The position numbers and the translations under genes are program-made. From contig JAAYJG010000330.1 of assembly GCA_012523055.1 (NCBI GenBank), forward strand, positions 1 through 35,309: DNA of 35,309 nucleotides, written 5' to 3'. Source of the stretch: Ruminiclostridium sp. (GTDB lineage Bacteria > Bacillota > Clostridia > DSM-8532). Positions 11,173 through 28,843 of the stretch are shown here, piece by piece (positions within the stretch are counted from its first letter, which is position 1; each line of letters starts with the position of its first letter). Below the pieces are notes generated by a model. That model was not told the DNA's origin and searched no databases. It was given only the letters and a program-made list of their open reading frames with translations.

Positions 11173-11201
11173 TTGACATTCAATCAAGTTGCCCATATAA
11201 T
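11173..11201 (+). promoter_or_regulatory. consensus sigma-A promoter
   Basis: TTGACA (11173-11178), 17-nt spacer, TATAAT (11196-11201). Confidence 0.85.
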
Positions 11202-11207
11202 GGAACA

Positions 11208-11482
11208 GGAGATTGCGCATGGTAGTCTTCTATCAGGAAAGCCTTAATAAATACGGAAGGAGTGTTGTAAGTGCTCATGAGGTTAGAAAAAGTGGTTTTC
11301 AACAAATAAATATTTGGTACTGGAATAATCAAGCCTGCTATCGGGGTCGTCACAAGGCAAAGCCCTGAACCGGAACATTCGATATTCCGGTGCGCAGCGA
11401 AGCAACCAGGCTGAAGAAACCATTTTTGCACGGCAACACAAAATAGGGTCAAAACAACAGCACGCGGGTAGCGTGCTTTTTT
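11208..11482 (+). ncRNA. candidate structured ncRNA, about 275 nt
   Basis: Between a consensus promoter and a strong terminator. Terminal helix TTGC..ATGGT..CTTC (11213-11230) with GAAG..ACCAT..GCAA (11413-11436); internal hairpin CCGGAACATTCGATATTCCGG (11370-11390); no convincing ORF. Confidence 0.65.
11459..11482 (+). terminator. Rho-independent terminator
   Basis: AGCACGC-GGGTA-GCGTGCT followed by TTTTT. Confidence 0.88.
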
Positions 11483-11553: not shown

Positions 11554-11706
11554 ATGAAGAAGAAAAAGAAAAAAACCACTCTTGATCTGATGAAAACCAT
11601 TCGGAATGAATGGAGTATCAACCCCAGAACAAGAGTGCAGGAAAATGAACTGAGAAACAAGAAGAAAAGAAGACAGGATGAAAAGAGAATGAAATACGAA
11701 TGGTGA
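11554..11706 (+). CDS. small basic protein (IRNEWxINPxTRVQEN motif)
   Basis: MKKKKKKTTLDLMKTIRNEWSINPRTRVQENELRNKKKRRQDEKRMKYEW, with AGGAG RBS. Motif recurs in the relic at 28.9 kb. Confidence 0.6.
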   Translation: MKKKKKKTTLDLMKTIRNEWSINPRTRVQENELRNKKKRRQDEKRMKYEW

Positions 11707-11721
11707 AGGAGAGGATTCAGG

Positions 11722-12168
11722 ATGGATAAATTTCTTGGCATATCCCCCTTGAGTGAAGATGAAACAAGGCTCAAGAAGAATGATTTGGATGAGGAGATGT
11801 TTAATATGGATGTTCAATTCAAGAGCGAGAAGCTCTGCGACTATAGTGCCATGACCAGTGTGAGCCAGGAGGCTTTCCACGGATGGCACCTGGATAATTG
11901 GTATGTATCAGAGCCTGTTATGGCAGGACTGCCCGAACAGGGCGAGGAGCTTGCCCTCGATTTATCGATGATAACGGAAATCGCCGGCGAGGATACCGGA
12001 CACGTGCTTTTTTCCATTTATCAATTTATAGTGGCCGAAACAGTTCAAAATAGTGCTGTAGCGGCCACTGTTTTTTTACCTTACTCTTGCTGTAAAAAAC
12101 ATCTTTCCAAGCAGCCTTTTTTGGGTAAACAGTTCATAGATGGATCGGTTATAACAAAAGCAGCATAA
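11722..12168 (+). CDS. hypothetical protein
   Basis: 148-aa ORF with GGAGAGGA RBS; its 3' part runs through a terminator-like hairpin, so the true end is doubtful. Confidence 0.4.
   Translation: MDKFLGISPLSEDETRLKKNDLDEEMFNMDVQFKSEKLCDYSAMTSVSQEAFHGWHLDNWYVSEPVMAGLPEQGEELALDLSMITEIAGEDTGHVLFSIYQFIVAETVQNSAVAATVFLPYSCCKKHLSKQPFLGKQFIDGSVITKAA
12030..12077 (+). terminator. terminator-like hairpin inside ORF 11722-12168
   Basis: AGTGGCCG (12030-12037) / CGGCCACT (12062-12069), inner ACAG/CTGT, then TTTTTTT. Confidence 0.65.
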
Positions 12169-12196: not shown

Positions 12197-12748
12197 ATGA
12201 AAGAACTGCTGGAAACAGAAAGGCTTTTTGTCAGAAGCTTTAAGCCTGAAGATTGGAGAGAACTTCAGGAATACATATCCAAAGAAGAGGTTATGAGGTT
12301 CGAAGAACCTTGGGACTGTTCGGATGGAGGCATGCGTAAGGCTGCTGAAGACTTTTCAAAGGGGGATGACTTCTGGGCGGTGGAATTGAAAAGCACCGGA
12401 AAAATGATTGGAGATCTCTATTTTGGAAAAACAGGCCCGGAAAGTTTTCGTACCCGAATGATTGGTTATATCTTCAACAATTGCTTCCATGGAAACGGCT
12501 ACGCCACAGATGCCTGCAGAGCTTTACTAAGCTATGCTTTTAGCAGCCTCAATGTTCATCGCGTTGTCGGTTTATGCAGCCCGGAAAACAAGCCATCATG
12601 GAAATTGATGAAGCGGCTGAACATGCGGCGGGAAGGGCATTCCATCAAGGCTGTCACTTTCAGAATGAACGAAGCAGGCCGACCAATCTGGTGGGATGAA
12701 TATCGGTATGCCATATTGGCTGAGGAGTGGGCTGACATAAACGTGTGA
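12197..12748 (+). CDS. GNAT family N-acetyltransferase, RimJ/RimL-like
   Basis: ETERLFVRSFKPEDW...GYIFNNCFHGNGYATDACRALLSYAFSSLNVHRVVGLCSPENKPSWKLMKRLNMRREG. Confidence 0.92.
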   Translation: MKELLETERLFVRSFKPEDWRELQEYISKEEVMRFEEPWDCSDGGMRKAAEDFSKGDDFWAVELKSTGKMIGDLYFGKTGPESFRTRMIGYIFNNCFHGNGYATDACRALLSYAFSSLNVHRVVGLCSPENKPSWKLMKRLNMRREGHSIKAVTFRMNEAGRPIWWDEYRYAILAEEWADINV

Positions 12749-12781: not shown

Positions 12782-13498
12782 CTAACCTTGCGGCATGTTG
12801 AATTTATATCCAACCCCCTTTATTGTTTGAATGAATACAGGTTTTTTGGGGTCGGTTTCAATTTTCTTCCTGATATTACTAACATGAACCATAATTGTTC
12901 TATAGTCACCAAGGCTTTCCGTACCCCACAGATCTTGAAAGAGCTGCTCATTGCTGATCACCGCATTCGGGTTTTGTGCCAGCATGGTAAGGATTTGGAA
13001 TTCCTTTGGTGGCAGGGGTATGGTTTCTCCGTTGATGATGACGCAATAATTACCGATATCGATGATCAGCTCTCCGCAGGTGATGGTATTCTCCGATGAA
13101 ACGTTTTCCTGCAACTCTTGCTTTTTCGTTATGGAATTTCGCCGCAGCTGTGCTTTCACCCTTGCGATCAGCTCGATGGGTTCAAATGGCTTTCCGATAT
13201 AATCGTCTCCACCAGCAAAAAGCCCGATAGACTTCTCTGCCGGGTTGCATTTGCAGCTTAGAAAAATAATGGGAGTTGTGAGGCTGTTCCTTATTTCCTG
13301 GCACACTTCTATCCCGTCCATTCCTGGAAGCATTATATCGAGAATGATTAGATCCGGCTGTTCGGATAAAGCCATACAAACTGCTTTAATTCCATCATCC
13401 GCCGTAACCACATTGTATCCTTCATTCCGTAAATAGAGTGTGACGATTTCACGAATATCGTCATCATCGTCTACCAGTAAAATTTTCTTCTGCGTCAT
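12782..13498 (-). CDS. OmpR-family response regulator
   Basis: DDDDDIREIV, phospho-Asp context DLIILDIMLPGMDG, KPF motif, C-terminal winged helix (LPPKEFQILTMLAQNPNAVISNEQLFQDLWG). Confidence 0.93.
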   Translation of the reverse strand: MTQKKILLVDDDDDIREIVTLYLRNEGYNVVTADDGIKAVCMALSEQPDLIILDIMLPGMDGIEVCQEIRNSLTTPIIFLSCKCNPAEKSIGLFAGGDDYIGKPFEPIELIARVKAQLRRNSITKKQELQENVSSENTITCGELIIDIGNYCVIINGETIPLPPKEFQILTMLAQNPNAVISNEQLFQDLWGTESLGDYRTIMVHVSNIRKKIETDPKKPVFIQTIKGVGYKFNMPQG

Positions 13499-13572
13499 TT
13501 GTCTTCCCTTCCATTTTCATTTATTATCTTAAGCATCGCTGGTTCTGCGGCCTGTTCCTGATTTTATCGGTG

Positions 13573-15705
13573 TTATAGTGAAGAACCCTGATCAATTTTC
13601 CGCTGGTAAACAGAAAGGCTAAAGAAAAACCGACTCCCTTTGCCCGGTTCGCTTTGAATCTCTATTTGTGAGCCGTGGCTGGCCAGTATTTCCTTTACAA
13701 TCGCAAGACCGAGGCCGTTGCTGTCTTTGCCCGCCTTGCGGGCCTTTGATACGATGTAGAAACGTTCAAATATATGGGCTCGATCTTCTTCGCATATCCC
13801 GATGCCTGTATCACTGATATTTACCTGCAACAAACTGTTTTCTTCATTAAGTGCAAAGGTTAAGTCAATTTGTCCGTCGGCAGGCGTATACTTTACTGCG
13901 TTATTTATAAGGTTTGCAAAAACCCGTTCCATTTTCCGAACATCTGCCTTCACAAACATCGCGTGCAAAAATGAATCCTCATGTGCCCCGGGTTTGATAA
14001 TCTTGAATGAAACCTTTGCCTGGTGCATGTCCAGACTGCATTTTTCAGAGAAATATAGAATAAATTCGATTACCGACATCTCTGTATACTGAAGCTGAAA
14101 CTGGCGTGATTCCAATTGAGAAAGCTCAAACAGTTCCTGCACCATATTGCTCATCTGGTAGGACTTGTCCCGCGCCCTGATGAGGTATTCCTGCTGCTGC
14201 CAGGGATCCTTTACGATACCATCCAAGATGGTGTTAATATATCCGATGACGGACGATATGGGCGTCCTCAAGTCGTGGGACACATTCTGCATCAGGTTCT
14301 GCAGAGATTTTTCAGAACGGGAGACAGCCTGGTAAGCTACTTTCAGCTCTTCCCTGGATGTCTCCAGTGCCAGGGTTCGCTCCTTTACTTTTTCCTCCAG
14401 GCCTTTATTGGCCGATCGCAGTTTTGCAGTTAACAATTCCACCTGCGAAAAGCTACCTGAAAACTTTCTTGCCAGAACAAGTGCCTGTGTTAAGGTTAAA
14501 ACCAGCAGACCGATGGAGGAAAGATCGCCCCGTGTTACGAAATTGCGCAGGAAATGGTTGTGACTGTCGGCTACAATCACACTTAAAAACAAAACATCGT
14601 TCAGTGCTGTGAAAACCATCATGGTTAAACCGAAACCAAGTAAATAGGCTCCTGGCCTTTTTCTGATGCAGGTGATAAGGACAATCCACAGCACATAACC
14701 GAAGGTGCAAATTGAAAACACCTGATAAACGGGGTTGACCAGTGTAAAGATACGGGCGGGGGTTGTTAATACCAGAAGTGAAAAGGCTGCACCGATAATC
14801 TGAATGACATGGTTGGCTTTTTTTGAAACATCCTTTGGAAATATGGTTCTCAGGTATGAAAACACCAGAGGAATTCCGTAATAATACGCTGTGGTCTGTA
14901 TTTTATGAGCCAATTCCCAGGGGAAGCCTGGAAAGAGATGAATAAAGAATATTTCACCGACAAACAGCGTTCTAAGGCTGATCAGGATCGAGTAAATCCC
15001 GAGATACAGCGAGGATTTATCTTTTGTACGATACAGGAACAGAGCGATATGGTATAAACCAATGACGAAAAGGCTGCCGAACAGGAAAAGATCCAGCGCA
15101 AGGTTGCAAATCCGTATTTCAACCACCGCCTCCGCTGTTCCCAACCAGATGCTTTCAAGAATCCCACCACTGCGATGGCTGGCGTTGGAAACCTGAAGGA
15201 CAAGCTCAATAGGATCGGTATTTCCCTGCAGGAAATGGATTTGGGGAAGATACTGGGGCTTCATCTGTTCTGCTGCAGTGGCCGTTTCCCCGGCAGAAGC
15301 CAGCAGGTCGCCGTTAGCCCACATGCGGTAGGATGTAAATATGCGGGGAATTTTTATTCCCAGCAGCTCATCTCCGGGGTTTGTGATCAATAAACGAAAG
15401 GTAGCAAAACCTGAGCCAGAAAGCTTTTCACCATCCAGTTCGAAATTGTTCCATGCTCTGGGCAGTTCTATCCACTTTTTAGCCGCTTCATGGCTGCCGG
15501 TATGAAAATCCTCGGGAGAAAGCAGTTCATTCCAATAAAACTCCCATTCTCCATCCAGAGTTAGCATCGGCGATTCTTCCCGGTTCCACCCGGACAAATC
15601 CATTACTCCGTTGCGAAACTCTTCTTCTCCTGTCTGTGCAAAGCTCATTTGCGTAAAGGCTGTGAACACCATAAGCAGCAGCAGCCATACAAATTTCTTT
15701 TGCAT
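13573..15705 (-). CDS. sensor histidine kinase with 7TMR-DISM-type N-terminal region
   Basis: Signal peptide, extracellular beta domain (DGEWEFYWNELLSPEDF), multi-TM region, H-box VSHDLRTPISSVIGYI, N-box NLINNAVKYTP, G-boxes DTGIGI and GLGLAIV. Confidence 0.92.
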   Translation of the reverse strand: MQKKFVWLLLLMVFTAFTQMSFAQTGEEEFRNGVMDLSGWNREESPMLTLDGEWEFYWNELLSPEDFHTGSHEAAKKWIELPRAWNNFELDGEKLSGSGFATFRLLITNPGDELLGIKIPRIFTSYRMWANGDLLASAGETATAAEQMKPQYLPQIHFLQGNTDPIELVLQVSNASHRSGGILESIWLGTAEAVVEIRICNLALDLFLFGSLFVIGLYHIALFLYRTKDKSSLYLGIYSILISLRTLFVGEIFFIHLFPGFPWELAHKIQTTAYYYGIPLVFSYLRTIFPKDVSKKANHVIQIIGAAFSLLVLTTPARIFTLVNPVYQVFSICTFGYVLWIVLITCIRKRPGAYLLGFGLTMMVFTALNDVLFLSVIVADSHNHFLRNFVTRGDLSSIGLLVLTLTQALVLARKFSGSFSQVELLTAKLRSANKGLEEKVKERTLALETSREELKVAYQAVSRSEKSLQNLMQNVSHDLRTPISSVIGYINTILDGIVKDPWQQQEYLIRARDKSYQMSNMVQELFELSQLESRQFQLQYTEMSVIEFILYFSEKCSLDMHQAKVSFKIIKPGAHEDSFLHAMFVKADVRKMERVFANLINNAVKYTPADGQIDLTFALNEENSLLQVNISDTGIGICEEDRAHIFERFYIVSKARKAGKDSNGLGLAIVKEILASHGSQIEIQSEPGKGSRFFFSLSVYQRKIDQGSSL

Positions 15706-16359: not shown

Positions 16360-19300
16360 GTGTTGAAAAAATGGTTTACTTTTCTTTTTACAATTTCGTT
16401 CCTTATGACTCTGTTTACATTACCCGCCTTCGCATCCATACGGAGCTACGGTGATGAAAACAATAATTTCCATAGGGATCATTTCTACATCAGTAAGGAT
16501 GAGAACGGGCATGGCAGCGATAGCGATACATCCGGCGGAATCGGCGGCATCGACAGCAACGGGTTTTATAACGGATGGGTAGACCCGCAGGATGAGTCTG
16601 AAGACTTTAAAGTATGGTACAAGCTGGATTTTTCCGCCGAGGATATGCAGAGGATCAACAAAGGGGACATCAGCGCGAAGGTGAGCATGTGGGTGGCAGA
16701 TACCCGATCCGGGCTGAACGACTATGCAATCTTTGAGTGGTTTGCCATGGTAAACGGCGACTGGAAATCTCTGGACAAAACCTCCAAAGCACTGGAAGAC
16801 TCGGCTACCTGGACATATACAAGAAGTATCCCGGTGAACAGCACCGCGCTGGAGCTGGACTTTTCCTCCGACGAAGACGGGAGCAATGATGTTGAGTTCA
16901 ACAAAATAAAGGTTTATTTCTACGACTCCACGGCGCCTACCGTGAAAAGCATTCAATCCAATGATTCAGGAACGAAGATCATTGGAAATTCAACCAGTTT
17001 TACAGTTACCTTTGATGAAGCGGTCAATGTGACAGGCACTCCCAAAATTAAGATGAATACGGGAGGATACGCATTTTATACCTCAGGGTCGGGTACCGAC
17101 ACCCTTACGTTCAAATATACGGTGACGCAGGGAGAGGAAACGGAACAGCTGAACATCCATACAAGCCCGATGGCCATCGAGCTAAATGAAGGAACGATCG
17201 CGGACAGGGGACCCAACAACGCCAGTCTGACCCTCATGAACAAAACAAACAATCTGGTGACCAAAAACATTCGGATAGACGGCAAGAAACCCGAAATCAA
17301 ATCCATTTCCCCTTTAGCGAAAGATGCATCCGGGACGGCTTCGGTAAACCTGAACAGCGGTGACACGGTAACACTGACGGTTTCCCTTACCGAGTCCGTG
17401 AATGTAAGCGGTACGCCCGCTGATATAAGACTGACACTAAATAATGGGAAATATGCCGTATGTCAGGCAACGGGAAACGGAATCAATACGCTAAGCTTCA
17501 AATATACCGTCAGTGCCGGCGACACAGATGTGAACGTTTTGGACATTGTTGGATTAACAGGGGGAACCATCAAGGATTTGGCCGGAAATGAACTGGTACG
17601 AACCACTAAAAGTATTGCCGCATCGGGTATCCGCGTTGACAATACACCCCCGAAGGCAAGCTTCAATGCAACCCAAAATACGCAATACAAAAGCTCCCAA
17701 AGCACAAAGGTGACACTGTCTGATACCACGGCGACCACAACAGGCTCTGGATTAACCGGCCTTACCTATAAATATACCTGGTCCACCGACAGCAATATTG
17801 CCAATGTGAATTGGAGTACGGTAACAAACAGCAACCCTGGCACTGGAACCCTTACAGTGACACAATCGTCCGTTACCGGGAAATACTATCTGCATATCCG
17901 GGCTGTAGATATTGCCGGGAATGTGGGATATTCAACATCAGGGGTGTTTTATCTGGATAACCAGGGCCCGGTCATTACATTAAGCCCGACGGGAGCATCT
18001 TCTCCGGCTGCAGATTATACTGTAAAGGTGACTGTGCAGGATGCTCTGTCCAATCTTCTGGCATCGTCGCTGCGTTATCAATGGTACCAGAGCGGGATAG
18101 ATGCTAACAAGTGGAAAACATTGACCCTGACAAGTGGAACAGCAAACATTTCCGCCATCGGCAGTGGGGCAGATGTTCATGGGAACTGGAAGCTTGTCGT
18201 GGAAGCCTCGGACACACTGAATAACAAAAGCGTGAAGCAAAGCGGAAATTTTTTCATTGATAAAAAACCGCCGGTTATTACGATCAGTCCGGCCGCCACT
18301 GTAAGCGACGATTACCACAAAGGCTATTCCATTACCGTCACCGCAGCCGACCCAAACGATGGATATGCTGCCGGAACTATTATGGGCAGATGGTATCAAT
18401 GGACAAGCAACTCAATAATACCGGCAGCAGGGGATGTGAACTGGAAAACAACCAGCGGCACTATCTCAGAAAGCACATACCATGGAGCTAAATACCTGCA
18501 CGTTAAGGCGCAGGACAACTCCGGGAACATCGCGATTACAACCCAACTCTTCCAGTTCGACAACGCCCCGCCTGTTATCGTTTTCAACACTGATGGTTCT
18601 GAAACGGTTCAGGGCAGCACTACAGCCAGCATATCTGTTCGGGATGATCATTCAGGCCTCCAATCCTGGGATTACCAGTGGACGAAGAGCGGTGCATATG
18701 ATGATACGAAATGGATACCAACCACATCGTTTACCTTTCCTTTAAAAGATGTGAACGGGGATTGGTTTTTATCGATCAGGGCCTGTGATAATGTCGGCAA
18801 CGTCAGTTATGCCACCAGCAAGCGTTTTCGCATAGATAACATGCCACCGGACGGTGGAATCGACGTTCTTGATGAAATAACAAACACCAATAAAGTGGAT
18901 ATCGAACTGTGGGCCACAGACACCAATTACCCTGATCAGATTGAATACCGGCTTTCTATTGGCGAAGAGGCTGCCTGGAGTGAATGGAAAACCTTTATTC
19001 CTGCTCTAAGCGAGAACCTGCCAGATATGGAGGGGCTTCACCGGATCAGGGTACAATACCGTGACCGGTTCGGCAACGTAAGCAGCATTAATGAGGACAC
19101 GGTGATTCTTGACAAAACGCCGCCTTCTGCTGAAATTGCTTATTCAACGGATGATTGGACTTCCGGGGATGTCACAGCAGTTCTTTGTGAGGTTACAGAC
19201 ACCTACAGGCAGGGGGACGACCATGTGAATATGGATCCGAGGAAGATAAGCTTTGTCGGGGATCCGTCATCTATTATTTATAACGAGGTGAATCATACCT

Positions 19301-22161
19301 GGCGGTTTACCTTCACACAGAACGGCAGCCGGGAATTCACCCTCAGGGACATCGCTGGAAATGAGAGTACCTACCAGGCAAAGGTGGAATGGATAGATAA
19401 AACGAAACCGGATATCGTTCTTTCAATGAACAGTAACAGTAATCCAGCCCGCAATGCGGTTGTTACGTTAAATGCATCCGATATTGTGGAATTAGACGGA
19501 AGAAACCTGAAAACAGAACTCCCGGAGCTGATATATTACCAATGGACTCAAACCCCTGAAGATCCGGCGGAAGACGACGAGGAATGGCTTGAGGCAACCA
19601 ACAATACTTCAGTGGAGTTAAGCGGGGTGGATGGAGACTGGTTCCTGCATGTGAAGGCGGCAGACAGAGTAGGGAACACAACCATTCTGGGAAGTGGCAG
19701 GTTCTTAATGGACAATACTCCGCCCGAAGCAAACGTTACCTTTGATAACACAAAACCGACAGCAAACGCAGTAACCGCCTATATATCGTTTAATGAACCC
19801 ACCACCGTTACCAATCCTGCCAATGGGAATACCTATTACACATTTTCTGAAAATGGAGAGTTTACCTTTGAATATAGGGATACGGCCGGTAATGAAGGGA
19901 CTGAAACCATCGAGGTGAGCTGGATTGATAAGAGCCTTCCGGGTGCTGAGATTCACTACTCAACAACTGACTGGACCAATCAGAATGTTACGGTCACTGT
20001 CTCGGTCTATGATGACAACAATACCGGGCTTGTTCAATTCAATTTCCCTGAAGGTATGGATTATAGTTTCATATCAAATGAGGTAACCGAAGCCCTTAGT
20101 GTGATCGAAACGGTCTATGAAATCCGTCAGAACGGCTTATTCAGCTTTATCGTGAAGGATTTTCAGAGAAATTTATCCAATGAAGTAAATGTTATAATTA
20201 ACAATATCGACAGTATAAAGCCAGAGGGCAGTCTGGTTTACAGCGAAACGAAACCAACACGGAACGATGTTGAAGTGTCGGTGATAGCCTCTGACAATAC
20301 CAATCAGAAGGTTGATATTGTTCCACCAGCTGAAGCACGGGTCCAAAATGTGGGAGGAAATGATCGATATGTATTCAGTGAAAACGGAAGCTATGATTTT
20401 CTCTTAAGAGACGTTGCCGGTAATGAAACCGTTCTGACAGCGGAAATTATGAATATTGACAGGGAGCCGCCTACAGGAATTTTAACTTATTCAACCGAGA
20501 CATGGACAAAAGAGCAGGTTACCGTTGAATTAACCTGTGATGACACGATCACGATCCTCAACAACAACGGATCCGGTTCGTTCACCTTTTATAACAATGG
20601 CAGCTTTGTCTTCAGAATTATGGATGCTGCCGGAAACATCAGTGAGGTTCCTGCACAAGTAACCTGGATAGACAAAGAACCACCCGCCGCTGTGGTGAGT
20701 TACAGCACAATGAACAGAACAAACCTGGATGTTTTGGTTATCATCGATACATCCGACAACAGCGGACAGACTGTTCAAATCAATGTTCCTGAAGGGTTTG
20801 AACCCGTTGTCGTAGAAGAAAAGGGACAGTACCTGATCTCCGGGAACGGAACCTATCAGGTTACTCTTGTCGATATTGCAGGGAACGAAAGGAAATTGAC
20901 GATAACGGTTAATAACATCGACAAAACCCTGCCAACCGCGGCAGTCGAGTATTCCACCACATCCCTGACCAATGAAAACGTGGAAATAAGGCTGACACTG
21001 TCCGAAGAAGCCACCGTTGCCTGTCCGGAAGGAATACTTGCCGTGGAAAAGGACGGTAATATGGTCTACATAGCCCATGAAAATGGTGAATACACCTTTA
21101 AGCTGACCGACCTGGCACAGAATGTGAACACGATAACGGCCGAGATCGGGAATATCGATAAAAAGCCTCCTGCAGGTTTCGTAACCTACAGCACCCTTGA
21201 ACCGACAAGGGGGCCTGTAATTGTAAGAGTATTTGCTGATGAAGATTTTGTAGTATCAAACAATTTAAATTCAGTTGAGCGGATCTTCAGCGAGAACGGC
21301 TCATTCACGTTCACCCTTGTGGATGCAGCGGGGAATATCGGCACGGTGGACGCCAGTGTCTCCAATATTGACAATGAGCCACCGCAAGTGGGCATTGTTT
21401 ACAGCACAACAGAAACAACAAACAAAAATGTGACCGCCATGGTTGAATCGGATGAAGAGATAATGATCCTGAACAACAATGGCAGTAAATTCTTCGAATT
21501 TAATGATAACGGAGCCTTCAGGTTTGTTGTCTCGGATCTTCTGGGAAACAGTACCAGTATTTATGCAGAGGTTAAAAATATAGACAAGCAGGCACCTGTC
21601 ATCACTTTAGCGGGTGGGAACCGGGTAATGCTTGAAACGGATAAACTGCTGGAGGGCCAGATCCCCGCGAGAATACTTGAAAAACTGCAGGATTATACAG
21701 CCTTCGATGAGAAGGATGGAGACCTTACGGCGTCAGTACAGATTGATACCAGTTCGCTGGATATAACGAAAACCGGATTAAATGAAGTGAAATACAGCGT
21801 TACGGACAAAGCTGGAAATACAGTAGAAGTGATCAGAAGTGTTATGATGATTGACAAAAACGCTTATAGAGCTTATGTGAATGGCCTGGATCCCCTGTAT
21901 GAACCGATGGTGTTTGATAAGTCCACCCTTGAGTTTGTTGTGACGAACCCACAGGGCGCTCTGGAGGTTAAGTGGAAGAGCGGATTTTGGAGCGAGGGTT
22001 CGATGAAGTCCATGGCAAACCTTCTGGAGAAGGTTGATGGGCGCTATGTGTTCAACGCTCCCAATGCCGGATTCTACACCTTCTATATTCAGGATCAGGA
22101 GAGGAATACCAGCTATCTACAGGTCTTTGTCCAATCTGTTGGACCAACGGAGGTGAAATAA
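16360..22161 (+). CDS. large secreted multi-domain Ig-like repeat protein
   Basis: GTG start, signal peptide (LKKWFTFLFTISFLMTLFTLPAFA), TVTFDEAVNVTGTPKI-type Ig-like domains, about nine YSTxxxTNxxV...ENGSFTF..DxAGN..NIDKxPP units, and a C-terminal FDEKDGDLTASV...VTDKAGN domain. Confidence 0.9.
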   Translation: MLKKWFTFLFTISFLMTLFTLPAFASIRSYGDENNNFHRDHFYISKDENGHGSDSDTSGGIGGIDSNGFYNGWVDPQDESEDFKVWYKLDFSAEDMQRINKGDISAKVSMWVADTRSGLNDYAIFEWFAMVNGDWKSLDKTSKALEDSATWTYTRSIPVNSTALELDFSSDEDGSNDVEFNKIKVYFYDSTAPTVKSIQSNDSGTKIIGNSTSFTVTFDEAVNVTGTPKIKMNTGGYAFYTSGSGTDTLTFKYTVTQGEETEQLNIHTSPMAIELNEGTIADRGPNNASLTLMNKTNNLVTKNIRIDGKKPEIKSISPLAKDASGTASVNLNSGDTVTLTVSLTESVNVSGTPADIRLTLNNGKYAVCQATGNGINTLSFKYTVSAGDTDVNVLDIVGLTGGTIKDLAGNELVRTTKSIAASGIRVDNTPPKASFNATQNTQYKSSQSTKVTLSDTTATTTGSGLTGLTYKYTWSTDSNIANVNWSTVTNSNPGTGTLTVTQSSVTGKYYLHIRAVDIAGNVGYSTSGVFYLDNQGPVITLSPTGASSPAADYTVKVTVQDALSNLLASSLRYQWYQSGIDANKWKTLTLTSGTANISAIGSGADVHGNWKLVVEASDTLNNKSVKQSGNFFIDKKPPVITISPAATVSDDYHKGYSITVTAADPNDGYAAGTIMGRWYQWTSNSIIPAAGDVNWKTTSGTISESTYHGAKYLHVKAQDNSGNIAITTQLFQFDNAPPVIVFNTDGSETVQGSTTASISVRDDHSGLQSWDYQWTKSGAYDDTKWIPTTSFTFPLKDVNGDWFLSIRACDNVGNVSYATSKRFRIDNMPPDGGIDVLDEITNTNKVDIELWATDTNYPDQIEYRLSIGEEAAWSEWKTFIPALSENLPDMEGLHRIRVQYRDRFGNVSSINEDTVILDKTPPSAEIAYSTDDWTSGDVTAVLCEVTDTYRQGDDHVNMDPRKISFVGDPSSIIYNEVNHTWRFTFTQNGSREFTLRDIAGNESTYQAKVEWIDKTKPDIVLSMNSNSNPARNAVVTLNASDIVELDGRNLKTELPELIYYQWTQTPEDPAEDDEEWLEATNNTSVELSGVDGDWFLHVKAADRVGNTTILGSGRFLMDNTPPEANVTFDNTKPTANAVTAYISFNEPTTVTNPANGNTYYTFSENGEFTFEYRDTAGNEGTETIEVSWIDKSLPGAEIHYSTTDWTNQNVTVTVSVYDDNNTGLVQFNFPEGMDYSFISNEVTEALSVIETVYEIRQNGLFSFIVKDFQRNLSNEVNVIINNIDSIKPEGSLVYSETKPTRNDVEVSVIASDNTNQKVDIVPPAEARVQNVGGNDRYVFSENGSYDFLLRDVAGNETVLTAEIMNIDREPPTGILTYSTETWTKEQVTVELTCDDTITILNNNGSGSFTFYNNGSFVFRIMDAAGNISEVPAQVTWIDKEPPAAVVSYSTMNRTNLDVLVIIDTSDNSGQTVQINVPEGFEPVVVEEKGQYLISGNGTYQVTLVDIAGNERKLTITVNNIDKTLPTAAVEYSTTSLTNENVEIRLTLSEEATVACPEGILAVEKDGNMVYIAHENGEYTFKLTDLAQNVNTITAEIGNIDKKPPAGFVTYSTLEPTRGPVIVRVFADEDFVVSNNLNSVERIFSENGSFTFTLVDAAGNIGTVDASVSNIDNEPPQVGIVYSTTETTNKNVTAMVESDEEIMILNNNGSKFFEFNDNGAFRFVVSDLLGNSTSIYAEVKNIDKQAPVITLAGGNRVMLETDKLLEGQIPARILEKLQDYTAFDEKDGDLTASVQIDTSSLDITKTGLNEVKYSVTDKAGNTVEVIRSVMMIDKNAYRAYVNGLDPLYEPMVFDKSTLEFVVTNPQGALEVKWKSGFWSEGSMKSMANLLEKVDGRYVFNAPNAGFYTFYIQDQERNTSYLQVFVQSVGPTEVK

Positions 22162-22165
22162 GATA

Positions 22166-25100
22166 ATGAAACGTAAAGTATTCGGAGCAGTTTTAAGCAT
22201 AATTTTGGCATCGCTTGTTTTTCTAAATGGTATAAACCTGCCGGTTTATGCACAGGAACCACCTGATATGGTTCACAGTATCAGTAATGGGTTTGTCAGG
22301 TTTTCGGTTCTTGCACAAAACGGCCGATTCAGCATTAAAACCTCTGCGGGGGCCGCGAATCGTGATGATAGTAACCAGAAGCTTTTGTATGAAGACAAAA
22401 AACCGGAAACCTCCTTTACCTCGTTTTGGATCGATGGAAAAGAGTACATCTATGGAAATTCATACGGTTTTATGGGGCTGGACGGAACCTTTACCGCACC
22501 GGCGACCGTTGGGAAAACAAACACCTCCGTGTGGAAAATTGGTGCTGTTGAGGTTACGCAAAGCTTGGTACTGCTGGAGGATAAAGATAATCCCAATGTG
22601 GGGAACGTCAGGATTACATACCAGGTTAAAAACTTAAGTGAAAAAGGTGATGTCAAGGTTGGAACAAGAATCCTTCTGGATACCATGCTTGGCTCCAATG
22701 ACGGCGCCCCCATATTTATCCCTGGTACTCAACAGCCTGTTGAGACGGAGATCGAGCTGAAAGATGATAATATACCCCAATACTGGCGAGGAGCAGATAA
22801 TTCTTTCGCACCGAAGGTAGTGTCCTATGGCTTTACCGAAGGATGGGGGAACCTTAGCCCGGACAAAATGGTCATTGGCCACTGGAGTGGCTTGTCCCAA
22901 AGTAAGTGGCAGTATACTCCCGACGACAGTCTGGCATTTTCGGGGACGGACAACCCCTATGGTACTGCAGACAGTGCCGTTGCGCTGTATTGGAACCCTG
23001 TTTCCATCGGCGCAGGGCAAACCCAGGTTTTTGAAACCTACTACGGCATCGGGAATTTCAGTAACATCAACGACAGAGCAAAATACGGCCTGACAGTGAA
23101 TGCGCCTGAAAAACTGGTCATCAACGATAACAAGACAGGCTATTTGGAAGATACCTTTACGATTACGGCTGAGTTGGACAACAGCCTGGCCGGCGCAAGC
23201 AACCTGACCAATGTGACGGCTTCACTGATTTTAGGCGACGGGCTGGTTCTAGTTCCCGACGAGGCTCAGGTTCCGTATGCCACACAGCAGGTTATTTATA
23301 AAAACACGGTACAGACCTTTACCTGGAAGGTGAAGGCCGAAAAGAGCGAGGCTTACACCACACGCCGGTACCGTGTAGACATCAACTGTGATAACCACAC
23401 CGATCCCTTTTCCAAAGACGGTTACATCCTGCTGCCGGGCATTCTGGGGGAACCTCCGCAAACACAATTCCTGGGTGTTAGCCCATCCAAGCTCTATATG
23501 GATGGTGCAAAAAGCTTTACCATCAAAGGCAAGGGTTTTGATATCTATATGAACAAAGCTCTTTGGAGAATGGAACTTGTGGACAGCAAAGGGAATATCG
23601 CGCTGCAAATCCCCAGAGCTGCCATTAATGTCGGACTCGAAGCCATCACCGTTAATTTTGATGCGAACCTGCCTCGTGGCTCTTATTCCATCAGGCTGAA
23701 GCACGATGAACCAAGCGTGGCGGATGAAACCCTGAAGACCAAACTGGAGATGACAGCGGATAAGAAATTCATGTCCAAGACCTATGGCGTCCTGTTTGTT
23801 CGCAAGACCGAAACCGATGGGGACTACACGTATACCCTTGAGATTGCGCAGGACGAAAAAGAGCTGACCCAAATCGAAGAAAGTCTTTTTTCCAATGAAG
23901 AAATCATCCTGGACATAAAGGGTGTCATTCGAGAAACCGAAGAGCAGGGCAGCAAGGTATACCGGGTGTTTGAAAAAGCCCTGCTTAATTCGGTACTGCA
24001 GTATGAAGGAGAGCCGCTGGTTATCCAGAAGGTTGACGATAACCAGGATGTGGATGGAGAGGATACGATACAGATCTCCGGGGACGGAACGCTTACGATG
24101 GAAAATGGATTTTCATTCTGGTTCTGTGAGTTTGAAAGCTCCATCGCGGATGGTGAGAATTACATGACGGAGCTGGCGGACGAGGATGATGGTGAATGCA
24201 ATATCGAGCTTGAGTTTACCGGAATTGGCAAGGTCGCCAAATGGATCGCCGGGTTTGCTATACAAATTGAGAACGCAGTTCTTTTGAAGAGGGGCATTTC
24301 CCTTGGGGGAGGCATCAATATCACTCTGCCCAATATGAATAAGGAACACGAAGTGGATGACGACGAAGATGAATTTCCGGGCATCAGCGCAGAGATATCC
24401 AATGTATTGTATGGTATGAAGGGTGAAAGCAACGATTTCGGGTTTATAGGCATCGATTTTACAACGTCGCTGAAAGCACCGGAGGACATGATCCCCATTA
24501 CCTGGATTCAAAAAGGGTTTGAAATGACGCTTACCATCAATACCATAGACGATCTGTTCTCCTTTGAAGGGGAGGCGGATATTAAGATCTGCGAAGCCAA
24601 TGTGAACCTGACCTTCATCAAGAACCAGGCTTCAGGATGGTGGCTGCCCGATGATTTCGTTATTGCGGCCGGCTTTGACCCCGGTTTTCCTCTGGGCCCC
24701 ACCGGAATTTTTCTGAACAAGGTTGGAGGCGGTGTTGAGGATTTGTTTGGCACCATTACCGGAGACGGAAGCCTGCCGCCGCTTCAGGTGATTCTAATCG
24801 CCGGTCTCAACTTCGCTGAGGTTATAGAAGTGGAAGCTAAGCTGAGCATCAGTAAAAATGGGTTTGTTTTTGAAGGTGAATGAGAAATTGCGAAGATGAA
24901 GGCCCTGAAAGAGGTCAGGGTTGCTTTAACCTGGGCAAAGCCCAGAAGCTTCGAACTGGAAGCCAAGCTGTCGCTGTTGAAAATCATTGAAGGTGGCATC
25001 AGTATTTCCGTCAGTGCTGACAGTTGGGAGGGAGTCGTATTCGCAGATCTGATCATTCCGCACGGGGTGCCTGTTGTTGGCGGCAAGAAGCTTTTCGGCA

Positions 25101-28100
25101 CCAGCTTGGGTGCAAGCAATAAGAAAATATGGGGTCCGGTGCCTGTGATGAACATCCCGGTTATGGTGACCTATTACTGGGGCAAGAATTTTGAATTCAA
25201 GGTACCGAGGCCATGGGGATCCGCCGGTGAAGGCTTTGCATTGACAGGTGAACCAGGCCTATACACCACAACTGTCTGTGATGATGAAGGGGATGGTGTG
25301 ACGATGGTGGTGGGAGGAAATATCCGCCTGGTGGGCTCCTCACAAAAATCGGAAACCGTATATGCATCCACAGGGAGTACGCCATTGCCAGCCCTGCCCG
25401 TGAACCGAATCGTCGCTGCACTGGACAAGCAGGAACACATCATGGATATTATGGATCAACAGATGGCGCTGATGGCCTTCAAGTTTTCCGGTGATACTCC
25501 GTCCCTTCAGGTTTTCCGTCCCGACGGAAGCCAGTACCCTCTGATTGATGCGGATCAGTATCCGGAGGATCCAAACGCAAATATGCTGGTACAGGTGATC
25601 GAGCCCGAATACAGCAATACCGGAGAAAGAGAACAATATATCTACATTACGATTGTGAACCCGGAAAACGGGCAATGGAAGGTTGTATCCGACCAGCCTG
25701 TACAGTCGGCCTTGATGGATGTGGATCCGGTTCCGGTTTTCAACAGTGTCACAGCTGAAGAAACAGCTGATAACCAGTTCCTCGTGAAATGGGATGCAGA
25801 CCATGCAGATGGCACTGTGGTAAACCTTTATCTGGCGAAGGATAAAACCTCCTCAGGGGTTGTATTGGCAAATGGGCTCAACAGTTCGTTGGGCGAATAT
25901 ACCGTATCGGTTCCAAAAGGAACAGAAGAGGGTGATTATTACATCCGAGCCGTCCTTGACAAGGGAGATGCGGGTTATGACACCCGATATACTGAATCAG
26001 CTGTTTCGGTAACCGATCCATACAAGCCTGCGGCAGTAACCGGCGTTACGCTGCAGCCATGCGGTGACGGCTTGCTAAAGGCCAGGTGGGAAAAGGTTGC
26101 AGAAGACAATATCAGCAGCTATATCGTAACTGTTCTGGACGGGAACGGTGAAGTTGTTCAAAGCGTCGGTCATGTTATCGCAGATGCAGAGGATGACAGC
26201 CTGATTCTCGGGGGACAGTACACCATGCAGGGAACAGAGCAGATTGGTGGGCTGGTTCCCGGAACTGAATACCGCGTGGGGATTGTCGCAAGCAGGGAAA
26301 TTGGTGATGATGAAAGCTTTACCACACACTACAGTGACATGGTCTATTCCAACACGGTACTGCTTCCGGAACCTAAACCGGCTTCCATCAATATTCAATA
26401 TGATTCAAGCTTCATCGACGGGTTTAACGATGAAGGCGAGAAAACGAAAATATCCAACCGTGGTGCTGTTACCTTGTCCTTCGGTGCGGATCAAAGTGAC
26501 ATTTCAACGGATGTGTTCGTCAACGGCTCATTCTGTCAGAGGGTGGAAGGCAAGGAATTTGATGTTGTCCTTGAAACTGAAGACGGGAACTATAATGTGC
26601 GGTTTATTACGATAAACGGAAATAAAGATACCACATCCCAAACCGTGCTGTTTACCGTTGATAAGACAGCACCCATGCTAATGATAGATAGTCCGGTTCA
26701 AGGACAGATGAGTGAAAACGGCAGTATCCTGGTAAGGGGAATAACAGAAAAGGGTACTGTCATATCGATAAACGGAGCCGGTCTGGTACCGGATCAAAAC
26801 GGTGTTTTTGAACAAACCATTTCCATCGGAGATGCATTGAAAGCGGAAATAGAGGTTGAGGTCAGCGACAGGGCAGGTAATGTAACGCAATACAACACCG
26901 AAGTTTTGAACGATACCATTAAAAACATTGACAGGATATCCATCCGCCCAGTAGAAAGGGAATTGATTCTGGGAAGTTTACAGGCAGATATGGTAATCCC
27001 TATGATGTATGGTTCAGATGTTGAAAAGGAAATGGTTGTGGGAGATTCACAAGCCTTTAGTGCAGTGATGATCGATGACGAAGGCCGTGAAATCGTTCTG
27101 GATACCGATGTCAGATGGTCGCTTCTGATGGGTGCATCGCTGGCAGAAGTGTCGGAGGACGGCATACTGCGTACCTTCAGCCACGGTGATATTGTTTTGA
27201 AGGCAGCATACTTTATTTCTGAGGATTATGCTTTTGAGGACGCTATTGCGATAACGGTTCTGCCGGATCCGAGCTTGTTGCCCGTAGATGAAGAGGATCC
27301 TTATGCGGGTGGAGAGGACCCTGGCACGGGAGAAGAAGAGCCCGGCACGGGAGTGGAAGAGCCTGACATAGGAGAAGAAGAGCCTGGCACAGGCGGTGAA
27401 GAGCCTGGAACGGGTGAAGAAGATCCTGGAACGGGTGAAGAAGATCCTGGAACGGGTGAAGAAGAGCCCGGCACGGGTGGAGAAGATCCTGGCACAGGTG
27501 GTGAAGAGCCTGGAACGAGTGAAGAAGATCCCGGCACGGGCGGAGAAGATCCTGGCACGGGTGGAGAAGATCCTGGCACAGGTGGAGAAGCCCCCGGCAC
27601 GGGTGGACAAGATCCCGGAACGGAAGAAGAAGAGCCTGGCACAGGTGGAGAAGCCCCCGGCACGGGTGGACAAGATCCCGGAACGGAAGAAGAAGAGCCT
27701 GGCACGAGTGGAGAAGCCCCAGGCACGGGAGATGAAGATTCTGATGACAGCAGCAAGAGTGGGAGCAACGGTGGAAGCAACAGCGGCGACAGTAGTGAAA
27801 TCGACAGGCAGTTGGAAGAGATCCTGAACAACATTATCCAAAACGAACAGAATGTCACACCAATGCAAATCGTTACTCTTTATCCGAATCAAAGCCAGAC
27901 GATAACGCTGCAAAACAGCGGACGGCTGGATATTCCATCCGGAATCATCGGTCAGCAGGACAAGCTGTTTATTGGCATTGTAAAAGATACCTCTGTGTAT
28001 CTGGGTGACAGTGATCTGAATACAAGGCTTTTAAGCCCTATTTATGAAATCCGGCTGGCAATGTCAGAACACACCTTAGGCGAGCCTGTTCAGTTGACAT

Positions 28101-28843
28101 TCTCCCTACGCGGAGTGGATATACAAGGTGCTGCAAGCCTGGGAGTGTATTACTACAACGAAGCTTTTGGAAAATGGCAATACATCGGAGGCGTGCTGAA
28201 TCCGGAAACGGAAGAATTCACAGTTTCTCTGAACCACTTCAGCAAATACGCCCTTCTGGCAAACCACGAAATGCAACGGTTCGATGATGTTGACGGAAGG
28301 TGGTCGGAGAACTATATCAAAGCTTTGCATTCTTTGGGAATTGTTAACGGCATACCGTACGGAGCAGGGTACAGGTTCGATCCTGAACGGGAAATTTCCC
28401 GAATTGAATTTACAAAAATGGTAGTTGAAGCCCTACTGCAAACGAACCAAATTGAAGACATCCAGCAAGATATGCCGCTGCCTTTCACCGACAGCAGTCA
28501 AATTCCTGAGTGGGGAAGAAAATATGCTTCGCTGGCCTGTTCAAACAATATCATTTCCGGCAGGGGAACAAAAGGCGGGCCTGCATTTGATGCATATGCC
28601 CCAATTACCAAAGCGGAAGCGGCCGTCATATTGGGCAGAACCCTAGACGATCCGGAAAAAACAGCAGAATCGAATTTCATTGATAAGAATCGCTTCCCGT
28701 CCTGGGCGAGAGATTCTATCGAACTGCTATGGCGCAAAGGGATAGTTCAGGGAGATTCAAATCATTTATTTGTACCTGATAAAAACCTGACCAGAGAAGA
28801 AGCTGCTTCAATGATTATGAAATGGATTAACAGTAGTTATTAA
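22166..28843 (+). CDS. large SLH-anchored surface protein, interrupted by in-frame TGA at 24881-24883
   Basis: Signal peptide in 22166-24883. The second ORF (24896-28843) is in the same frame four codons after the TGA, with similar AKLS repeats on both sides. FN3/Ig-like domains, PGTGG-E linker and three C-terminal SLH domains. Confidence 0.8.
27305..27735 (+). repeat. 21-nt tandem repeats encoding E-(E/D)-P-G-T-G-(G/E)
   Basis: About 20 heptapeptide units; a 63-nt block (GAAGCCCCCGGCACGGGTGGACAAGATCCCGGAACGGAAGAAGAAGAGCCTGGCAC...) is repeated nearly exactly at about 27589 and 27652. Confidence 0.92.

Follow-up and report, generated by a model that had tools for sequence, protein, structure and literature searches.

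A probable ribosome-mediated attenuator leader upstream of ribosome-related genes in Clostridia

The question raised by this locus is whether a short structured RNA with its own promoter and terminator is an independent molecule or the beginning of a message. It lies in a 35,309-nucleotide stretch of DNA from Ruminiclostridium sp. (the window), where a first-pass annotation recorded a candidate stand-alone structured non-coding RNA. The region is most likely a cis-acting element at the start of an mRNA that probably senses stalled ribosomes, rather than a stand-alone RNA. Its features are collected in Table 1.

Table 1. The leader and the genes behind it in the window (feature; positions; strand; basis)
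Promoter: -35 TTGACA 11173-11178, 17-nt spacer, -10 TATAAT 11196-11201	11173..11201	+	12/12 consensus match
Shine-Dalgarno (SD) of leader ORF, GGAAGGAG	11255..11262	+	Kept in alignments of 17 and 32 copies
Leader ORF (uORF): GTG start 11271, peptide MLMRLEKVVFNK, stop TAA 11307-11309	11271..11309	+	In-frame conservation
Helix P2, 5' arm, just past uORF stop	11317..11327	+	Two-sided changes at 9/11 pairs
Helix P2, 3' arm	11383..11393	+	Covariation, 9/11 pairs two-sided
Motif AAGCAACC, which most copies have as AGYAACC; putative switching strand	11400..11407	+	Conserved in alignments A2 and A3
Intrinsic terminator T1, AGCACGC-GGGUA-GCGUGCU then T-tract	11459..11482	+	
Client gene, conserved basic 50-aa protein (MKKKKKKTTLDLMKTIRNEWSINPRTRVQENELRNKKKRRQDEKRMKYEW)	11554..11706	+	Translation; relatives found
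Probable second operon gene, N-terminal GNAT-like, truncated-looking	11722..12168	+	tblastn match of L082 GNAT
Probable third operon gene, GNAT acetyltransferase	12197..12748	+	PF13302, 3.2e-26

The transcription unit itself is well defined. Its promoter, described in the first-pass annotation as a consensus one, matches at every position and is the sole promoter-like site between 11090 and 11600, a region for which shuffled sequences yield 0.7 sites at 9/12 or better. Both hexamers are retained in the homologue copies L002, L003 and L004. The annotation also proposed an RNA of about 275 nt that ends in a terminator, and this too is borne out: T1 has a 7-bp stem with 5 GC pairs and a T-tract behind it, and two terminator-like sites (one hairpin, read on both strands) were found against 0.4 expected. 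A terminator of the form GCACGC...GCGUGC-U tract is common to L002-L004 and to most copies of the window's subtype. The predicted fold of the RNA is also better than that of shuffles (z = -3.3).

A search of Rfam had been proposed beforehand. Neither the window nor any of twelve homologue loci contains a family that reaches its gathering score, and even at a lax threshold (E up to 10) there was no significant match in the leader region. The earlier remark had been that the RNA matches no familiar tmRNA, SRP, RNase P or common riboswitch core. The suggestion of 6S RNA is excluded, because the genome's own 6S sits elsewhere (RF00013, G000:C430, 84.8 bits); this family has no match at the leader. 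The other suggestion, a raiA-type RNA, gave no covariance-model match at gathering score, and the same is true of the remaining Rfam families. Given the promoter, the terminator, a fold above that of shuffles and the lack of an Rfam match, the earlier observation is therefore a real one.

These properties are also those expected of a stand-alone structured RNA that acts in trans, with the neighbouring gene incidental: it would have its own promoter and terminator and a structure above chance, and it would appear as a short terminated RNA, although the last of these is expected of an attenuator as well.

Searching with the DNA gives three relatives of the RNA within the family, and behind every one of them lies a gene for the small basic protein seen in the window. 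Further DNA matches (L005, L007, L008) were rejected as short chance matches within coding DNA. With the 50-residue protein as bait, divergent copies of the leader RNA were found upstream of its relatives. The leader occurs in named species including Ruminiclostridium cellobioparum and R. papyrosolvens, and is absent upstream of the protein's homologues L023, L029 and L046. Two covariance models, R1 made from 17 copies and R2 from 32, were searched regardless of the downstream gene. R1 matches 11 of 32 genomes of the family. R2 matches 30 of 391 genomes of the class (about 8% of those sampled), 10 of the 11 in the family of genome G313, and 5 of 399 in the phylum besides the window's own. The window's genome carries five copies of the leader with different client genes. 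The resulting comparison set holds 64 copies, and five more from other lineages.

The comparison does not bear out the claim that the RNA lacks a real ORF. The window contains a leader ORF of 12 codons (with an alternative ATG start at 11277), preceded by a Shine-Dalgarno sequence, and its frame is kept across homologues. Every one of the first 17 copies has a Shine-Dalgarno sequence and a short in-frame uORF, as have 32 copies of an enlarged set of 33. The sole exception is the decayed leader L080 (G035:C27), which has neither the Shine-Dalgarno sequence nor a uORF start; the same genome also carries an intact leader. In the first 17 copies the uORF stop directly precedes a conserved AAUA stretch. 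As a control, the start codon was picked by its distance from the Shine-Dalgarno sequence, independently of frame. The frame then spans 9-13 codons in 59 of 62 scorable copies, compared with 5 and 7 copies in the shifted frames.

The end of the peptide has a fixed layout, usually E-V-x-x-x-stop. In 62 of 64 copies, residue -4 relative to the stop is valine, a count somewhat favoured because the position of this valine also guided the choice among alternative starts. Glutamate is usual at -5, and positions -3 and -2 are mostly hydrophobic. Constraints on the RNA and on the peptide are not fully separable, since the codons GAGGUG can pair with the downstream AACC; part of the conservation of the uORF may thus be at the RNA level.

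Three other readings of the same stretch as coding DNA were rejected. A 49-codon frame on the + strand from 11219 is interrupted by a 1-nt deletion in a 93%-identical copy from a genome of the same genus, and a 90-codon antisense frame is interrupted by the same deletion. Reading the 49-codon frame past its in-frame TGA, as a selenoprotein or a pseudogene, fails as well, for in the same-genus copy the TGA is a TAA and the 1-nt deletion breaks the frame.

The genes behind the leader form the second line of comparison. RsgA-type GTPases lie downstream in 28 of the 64 copies, and the small basic protein in 18, of which 17 were located through the protein. CD3324 and ABC exporters are found behind nine copies each (one exporter lies about 3 kb off), MoxR-like ATPases behind three (named from sequence features, with no NCBIfam match), RtcB behind two, and an ABC-F protein and a Tet-type ribosomal protection protein behind one each. 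APH kinases, GNATs and methyltransferases recur among the client genes; the presence of a GNAT or a methyltransferase alone is weak proof, because these families are common. The family names of clients rest on representatives. Among copies found through the RNA model only, 46 of 47 lie near a gene for RsgA, CD3324, an ABC exporter, RtcB, a Tet-type protein, a MoxR-like protein, APH, a GNAT, a methyltransferase or the 50-residue protein. Gene context agrees in the five copies from other lineages.

Some of these clients can be placed more closely. The ABC-F protein L091 (= L032) passes the general ribosomal-protection ABC-F model; with the Lsa ABC-F model it reaches 734.8 bits, against a cut-off of 750. 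For L131 the Tet protection model gives 622.7 bits, where 775 would be needed, and it is therefore a relative below the curated cut-off. L128 passes the RtcB model and has behind it a protein with an RF-1 domain (a PrfH-like release factor). An RtcB2-PrfH operon is known to shield E. coli ATCC25922 against colicin E3 (PMC9223846).

In L168, L170 and L079 the leader is followed by short ORFs whose similarity to RsgA is confined to one end of that protein. The one in L168 is like a C-terminal piece, and in L170 and L079 the short ORF precedes an APH-type kinase. These may be either eroded clients or small functional derivatives.

In the window, about 71 nt separate the end of T1 from the client's start codon. 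The 50-residue protein has no Pfam or PADLOC match. Basic proteins of about this length with the core NPRTRVQENxLKNKKKRRQxEKK are found in several clostridial families (L012-L046), usually behind the leader, and the protein is a candidate ribosome-associated factor. The protein encoded at 11722-12168 has no Pfam match on its own.

These comparisons speak against a stand-alone RNA. The reading frame of the uORF is conserved, the copies lie on the same strand upstream of a limited range of gene kinds, and five copies in one genome precede different client genes. A trans-acting RNA next to an incidental gene is accordingly quite improbable. What stands of the first-pass annotation is a structured transcription unit absent from Rfam; its stand-alone and ORF-free character does not.

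The structure of the RNA is the third line of evidence. The annotation had also described a long-range closing helix. No conserved helix encloses the whole RNA, and the sole comparatively supported one in the window copy, P2, is internal. It was the proposed covariation check that brought out the two-sided changes in P2. For the whole structure (P2 and the helix of the Shine-Dalgarno sequence) the covariation score is 0.243. Shuffled alignments give 0.153 (0 of 500 reach the observed score), and sliding the partners gives no more than 0.086; the alignment had been fitted to the structure, which favours the score. In an earlier MAFFT alignment of 17 copies covariation was only moderate.

Downstream of P2, a motif near RAGYAACC recurs among the copies, and in most of them terminators follow it. 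Hybrids between the motif and the T1 of the same copy have a mean energy of -7.67 kcal/mol, against -6.09 +/- 0.25 kcal/mol for permuted pairs (0 of 2000, a test that ignores kinship among copies). Subtypes vary in matched fashion, for example with ACCUUUCG opposite a T1 carrying CGAAUAGGU; the ACCUUUCG strand can also pair with the Shine-Dalgarno sequence of the same subtype, CGAAAGG. A strand resembling CUUCUUUC, next to the motif GAGCAACC, offers a pairing partner for the Shine-Dalgarno sequence in 13 of the 17 copies first collected. This anti-SD strand is absent from the window's clade. An antiterminator formed by the 3' arm of P2 and the 5' arm of T1 was considered too, as the 5' arms are similar. 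It would have only 4-6 bp, and the permutation-tested pairing of AGYAACC with T1 was preferred.

Many copies have a second terminator, T2, and none is evident in the window copy. The loop of T2 (CCCGCAGGUGGUCGUUAUCUGCGGG) is unusually conserved in L078, L083, L030 and others, and within it AGGUGGUC resembles the AGGUGGUU of the uORF. This loop may be a second switching site.

A covarying helix, conserved sequence past the uORF stop and a terminator that could serve as expression platform would also suit a ligand-binding riboswitch in which the short ORF is incidental. Conservation after the stop is indeed seen across the copies. The helices are short, however, and the central loop is highly variable, most of it missing in L003/L018. 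The conserved reading frame is a further point against a riboswitch, as are the clients, which are linked by ribosomes and drugs and have no common metabolite. Of the explanations considered, a riboswitch has the least to recommend it and is very improbable.

The leader is thus best read as a ribosome-mediated transcription attenuator, and this assignment is made with good confidence. Comparison of sequences supports the uORF, P2, the motif, the terminator and the gene context, and the leader class is strongly supported. The window leader has an SD-preceded in-frame uORF and an intrinsic terminator between uORF and client gene. Translation of the uORF, stalling as the signal, the antiterminator of motif and T1, and a switch that runs from stalling to read-through are inferred.

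In the proposed mechanism, RNA polymerase would begin at the consensus promoter and a ribosome would initiate on the leader ORF of the nascent RNA. During normal translation, the AGYAACC region would be sequestered by the leader fold, through P2, through a short helix that involves the GGUG of the uORF and, in most subtypes, through pairing of SD and anti-SD. Transcription would then terminate at T1, and at T2 where present, to give the RNA of about 275 nt. If an antibiotic or other damage to translation stalled the ribosome on the uORF, the AGYAACC region would be freed and could pair with T1 sequence. Termination would fail, and the ribosome-protection or resistance-type genes would be expressed.

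Some observations weigh against the attenuator. The window's clade has neither the anti-SD strand nor an evident second terminator. When ribosome footprints were masked in nested partition-function folding, T1 was left intact: its mean probability was 0.79 unmasked, 0.87 with the start masked and 0.79 with the end masked, and no consistent switch was seen across copies. This kind of folding takes no account of the order of synthesis or of helices that cross, P1 among them, and because of this the result neither proves nor excludes an attenuator.

The same leader could also work with the opposite sign, sensing missing initiation or a shortage of free ribosomes. An empty uORF would then allow SD/anti-SD pairing, leave the motif free for T1 and lead to read-through, and translation of the uORF would favour termination. 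Masking the start did raise the probability of T1 in several subtype-A copies (from 0.01 to 0.68 in L078, and from 0.23 to 0.85 in L031), and lowered motif-T1 pairing. However, only a minority of copies show the effect, the crossing P1 helix has no place in a nested fold, and in the characterised relatives in layout, vmlR, hflXr and cplR, it is stalling on the uORF that induces expression. The opposite sign is unlikely, if less so than a trans-acting RNA.

The layout matches that of attenuators established by experiment. In vmlR, hflXr and cplR, an antiterminator strand becomes available when ribosomes stall on a uORF (PMC9226507, PMC6310831, PMC10201436). The leader of Bacillus subtilis vmlR is alike in having a uORF within an anti-antiterminator, so that stalling exposes the antiterminator, and an intrinsic terminator before a ribosome-protection gene (PMC9226507). 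Its uORF is very short (MIN, according to PMC10201436), compared with 9-13 codons in the present class, which also has helix P2, AGYAACC, in many copies a second terminator, and a wide range of client genes.

Another example is rli80 of Listeria monocytogenes, a constitutively transcribed small RNA before hflXr that was shown to be an attenuator with a 14-residue ORF (PMC6310831). Like the window copy, it looks like a small RNA that has a promoter and a terminator of its own, and it contains a short ORF; it controls a ribosome-rescue factor by transcription attenuation. Its peptide has the macrolide-type RLR, whereas the present class ends in E-V-x-x-x-stop and has other client genes. The RLR (Arg-Leu-Arg) macrolide arrest motif is absent from the listed uORF peptides.

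Clostridial cplR (PMC10201436) likewise combines a uORF, an anti-SD, a terminator and an ABC-F client (here Lsa-type, L032/L091). Its uORF encodes MR[I/M], and the Shine-Dalgarno sequence of the main gene is concealed by the terminator, whereas here the uORF has 9-13 codons of different sequence and the terminators lie well upstream of the client's. The comparative RNA motif uORFC-6-1, found upstream of hflX in Bacillales (PMC8632094), also places a uORF before a ribosome-rescue gene, but with an RLR peptide, a single client gene and a different order. In erm-type leaders such as ErmBL (PMC4935803), a short stall-sensing peptide governs a ribosome-protecting gene; the consensus of the present class lacks a known arrest motif such as RLR. 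ermC acts on translation and not by transcription termination (PMC6310831).

The leader class is apparently undescribed and widespread, with a mechanism of a known kind. As far as the searches reached, what is new is the architecture shared across many ribosome-related clients, together with the peptide consensus. No leader of such kind before clostridial rsgA, CD3324 or rtcB was found in the open-access literature (including PMC8632094 and PMC11109978), subscription journals lying mostly outside this search.

Two other features of the window may be mentioned. Convergent with the leader's operon, a response regulator and a 7TMR-DISM histidine kinase form a pair on the minus strand (12782-15705). 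Beyond it (16360-28843) are three very large consecutive ORFs of 1933, 905 and 1315 residues with bacterial Ig-like domains, the third also with S-layer homology domains; these are probable cell-surface proteins.

Leaders that sense drugs or stress are usually described gene by gene. Here, a single leader with a single peptide signature stands before many unrelated genes tied to damaged or drugged ribosomes. The balance tips slightly towards one attenuator class that acts as a portable translation-stress sensor and wires a cis ribosome-protection regulon in Clostridia and some other Firmicutes. If this is true, the extra RsgA GTPases, CD3324, the 50-residue protein and the MoxR-like pairs would be candidate ribosome-rescue or drug-resistance factors. 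The leader would serve as a search handle for new genes of intrinsic resistance and ribosome repair, and it suggests testable roles for RsgA paralogues, CD3324 proteins and the 50-residue protein. With the new uORF consensus one could also ask at which codons particular inhibitors arrest the ribosome.
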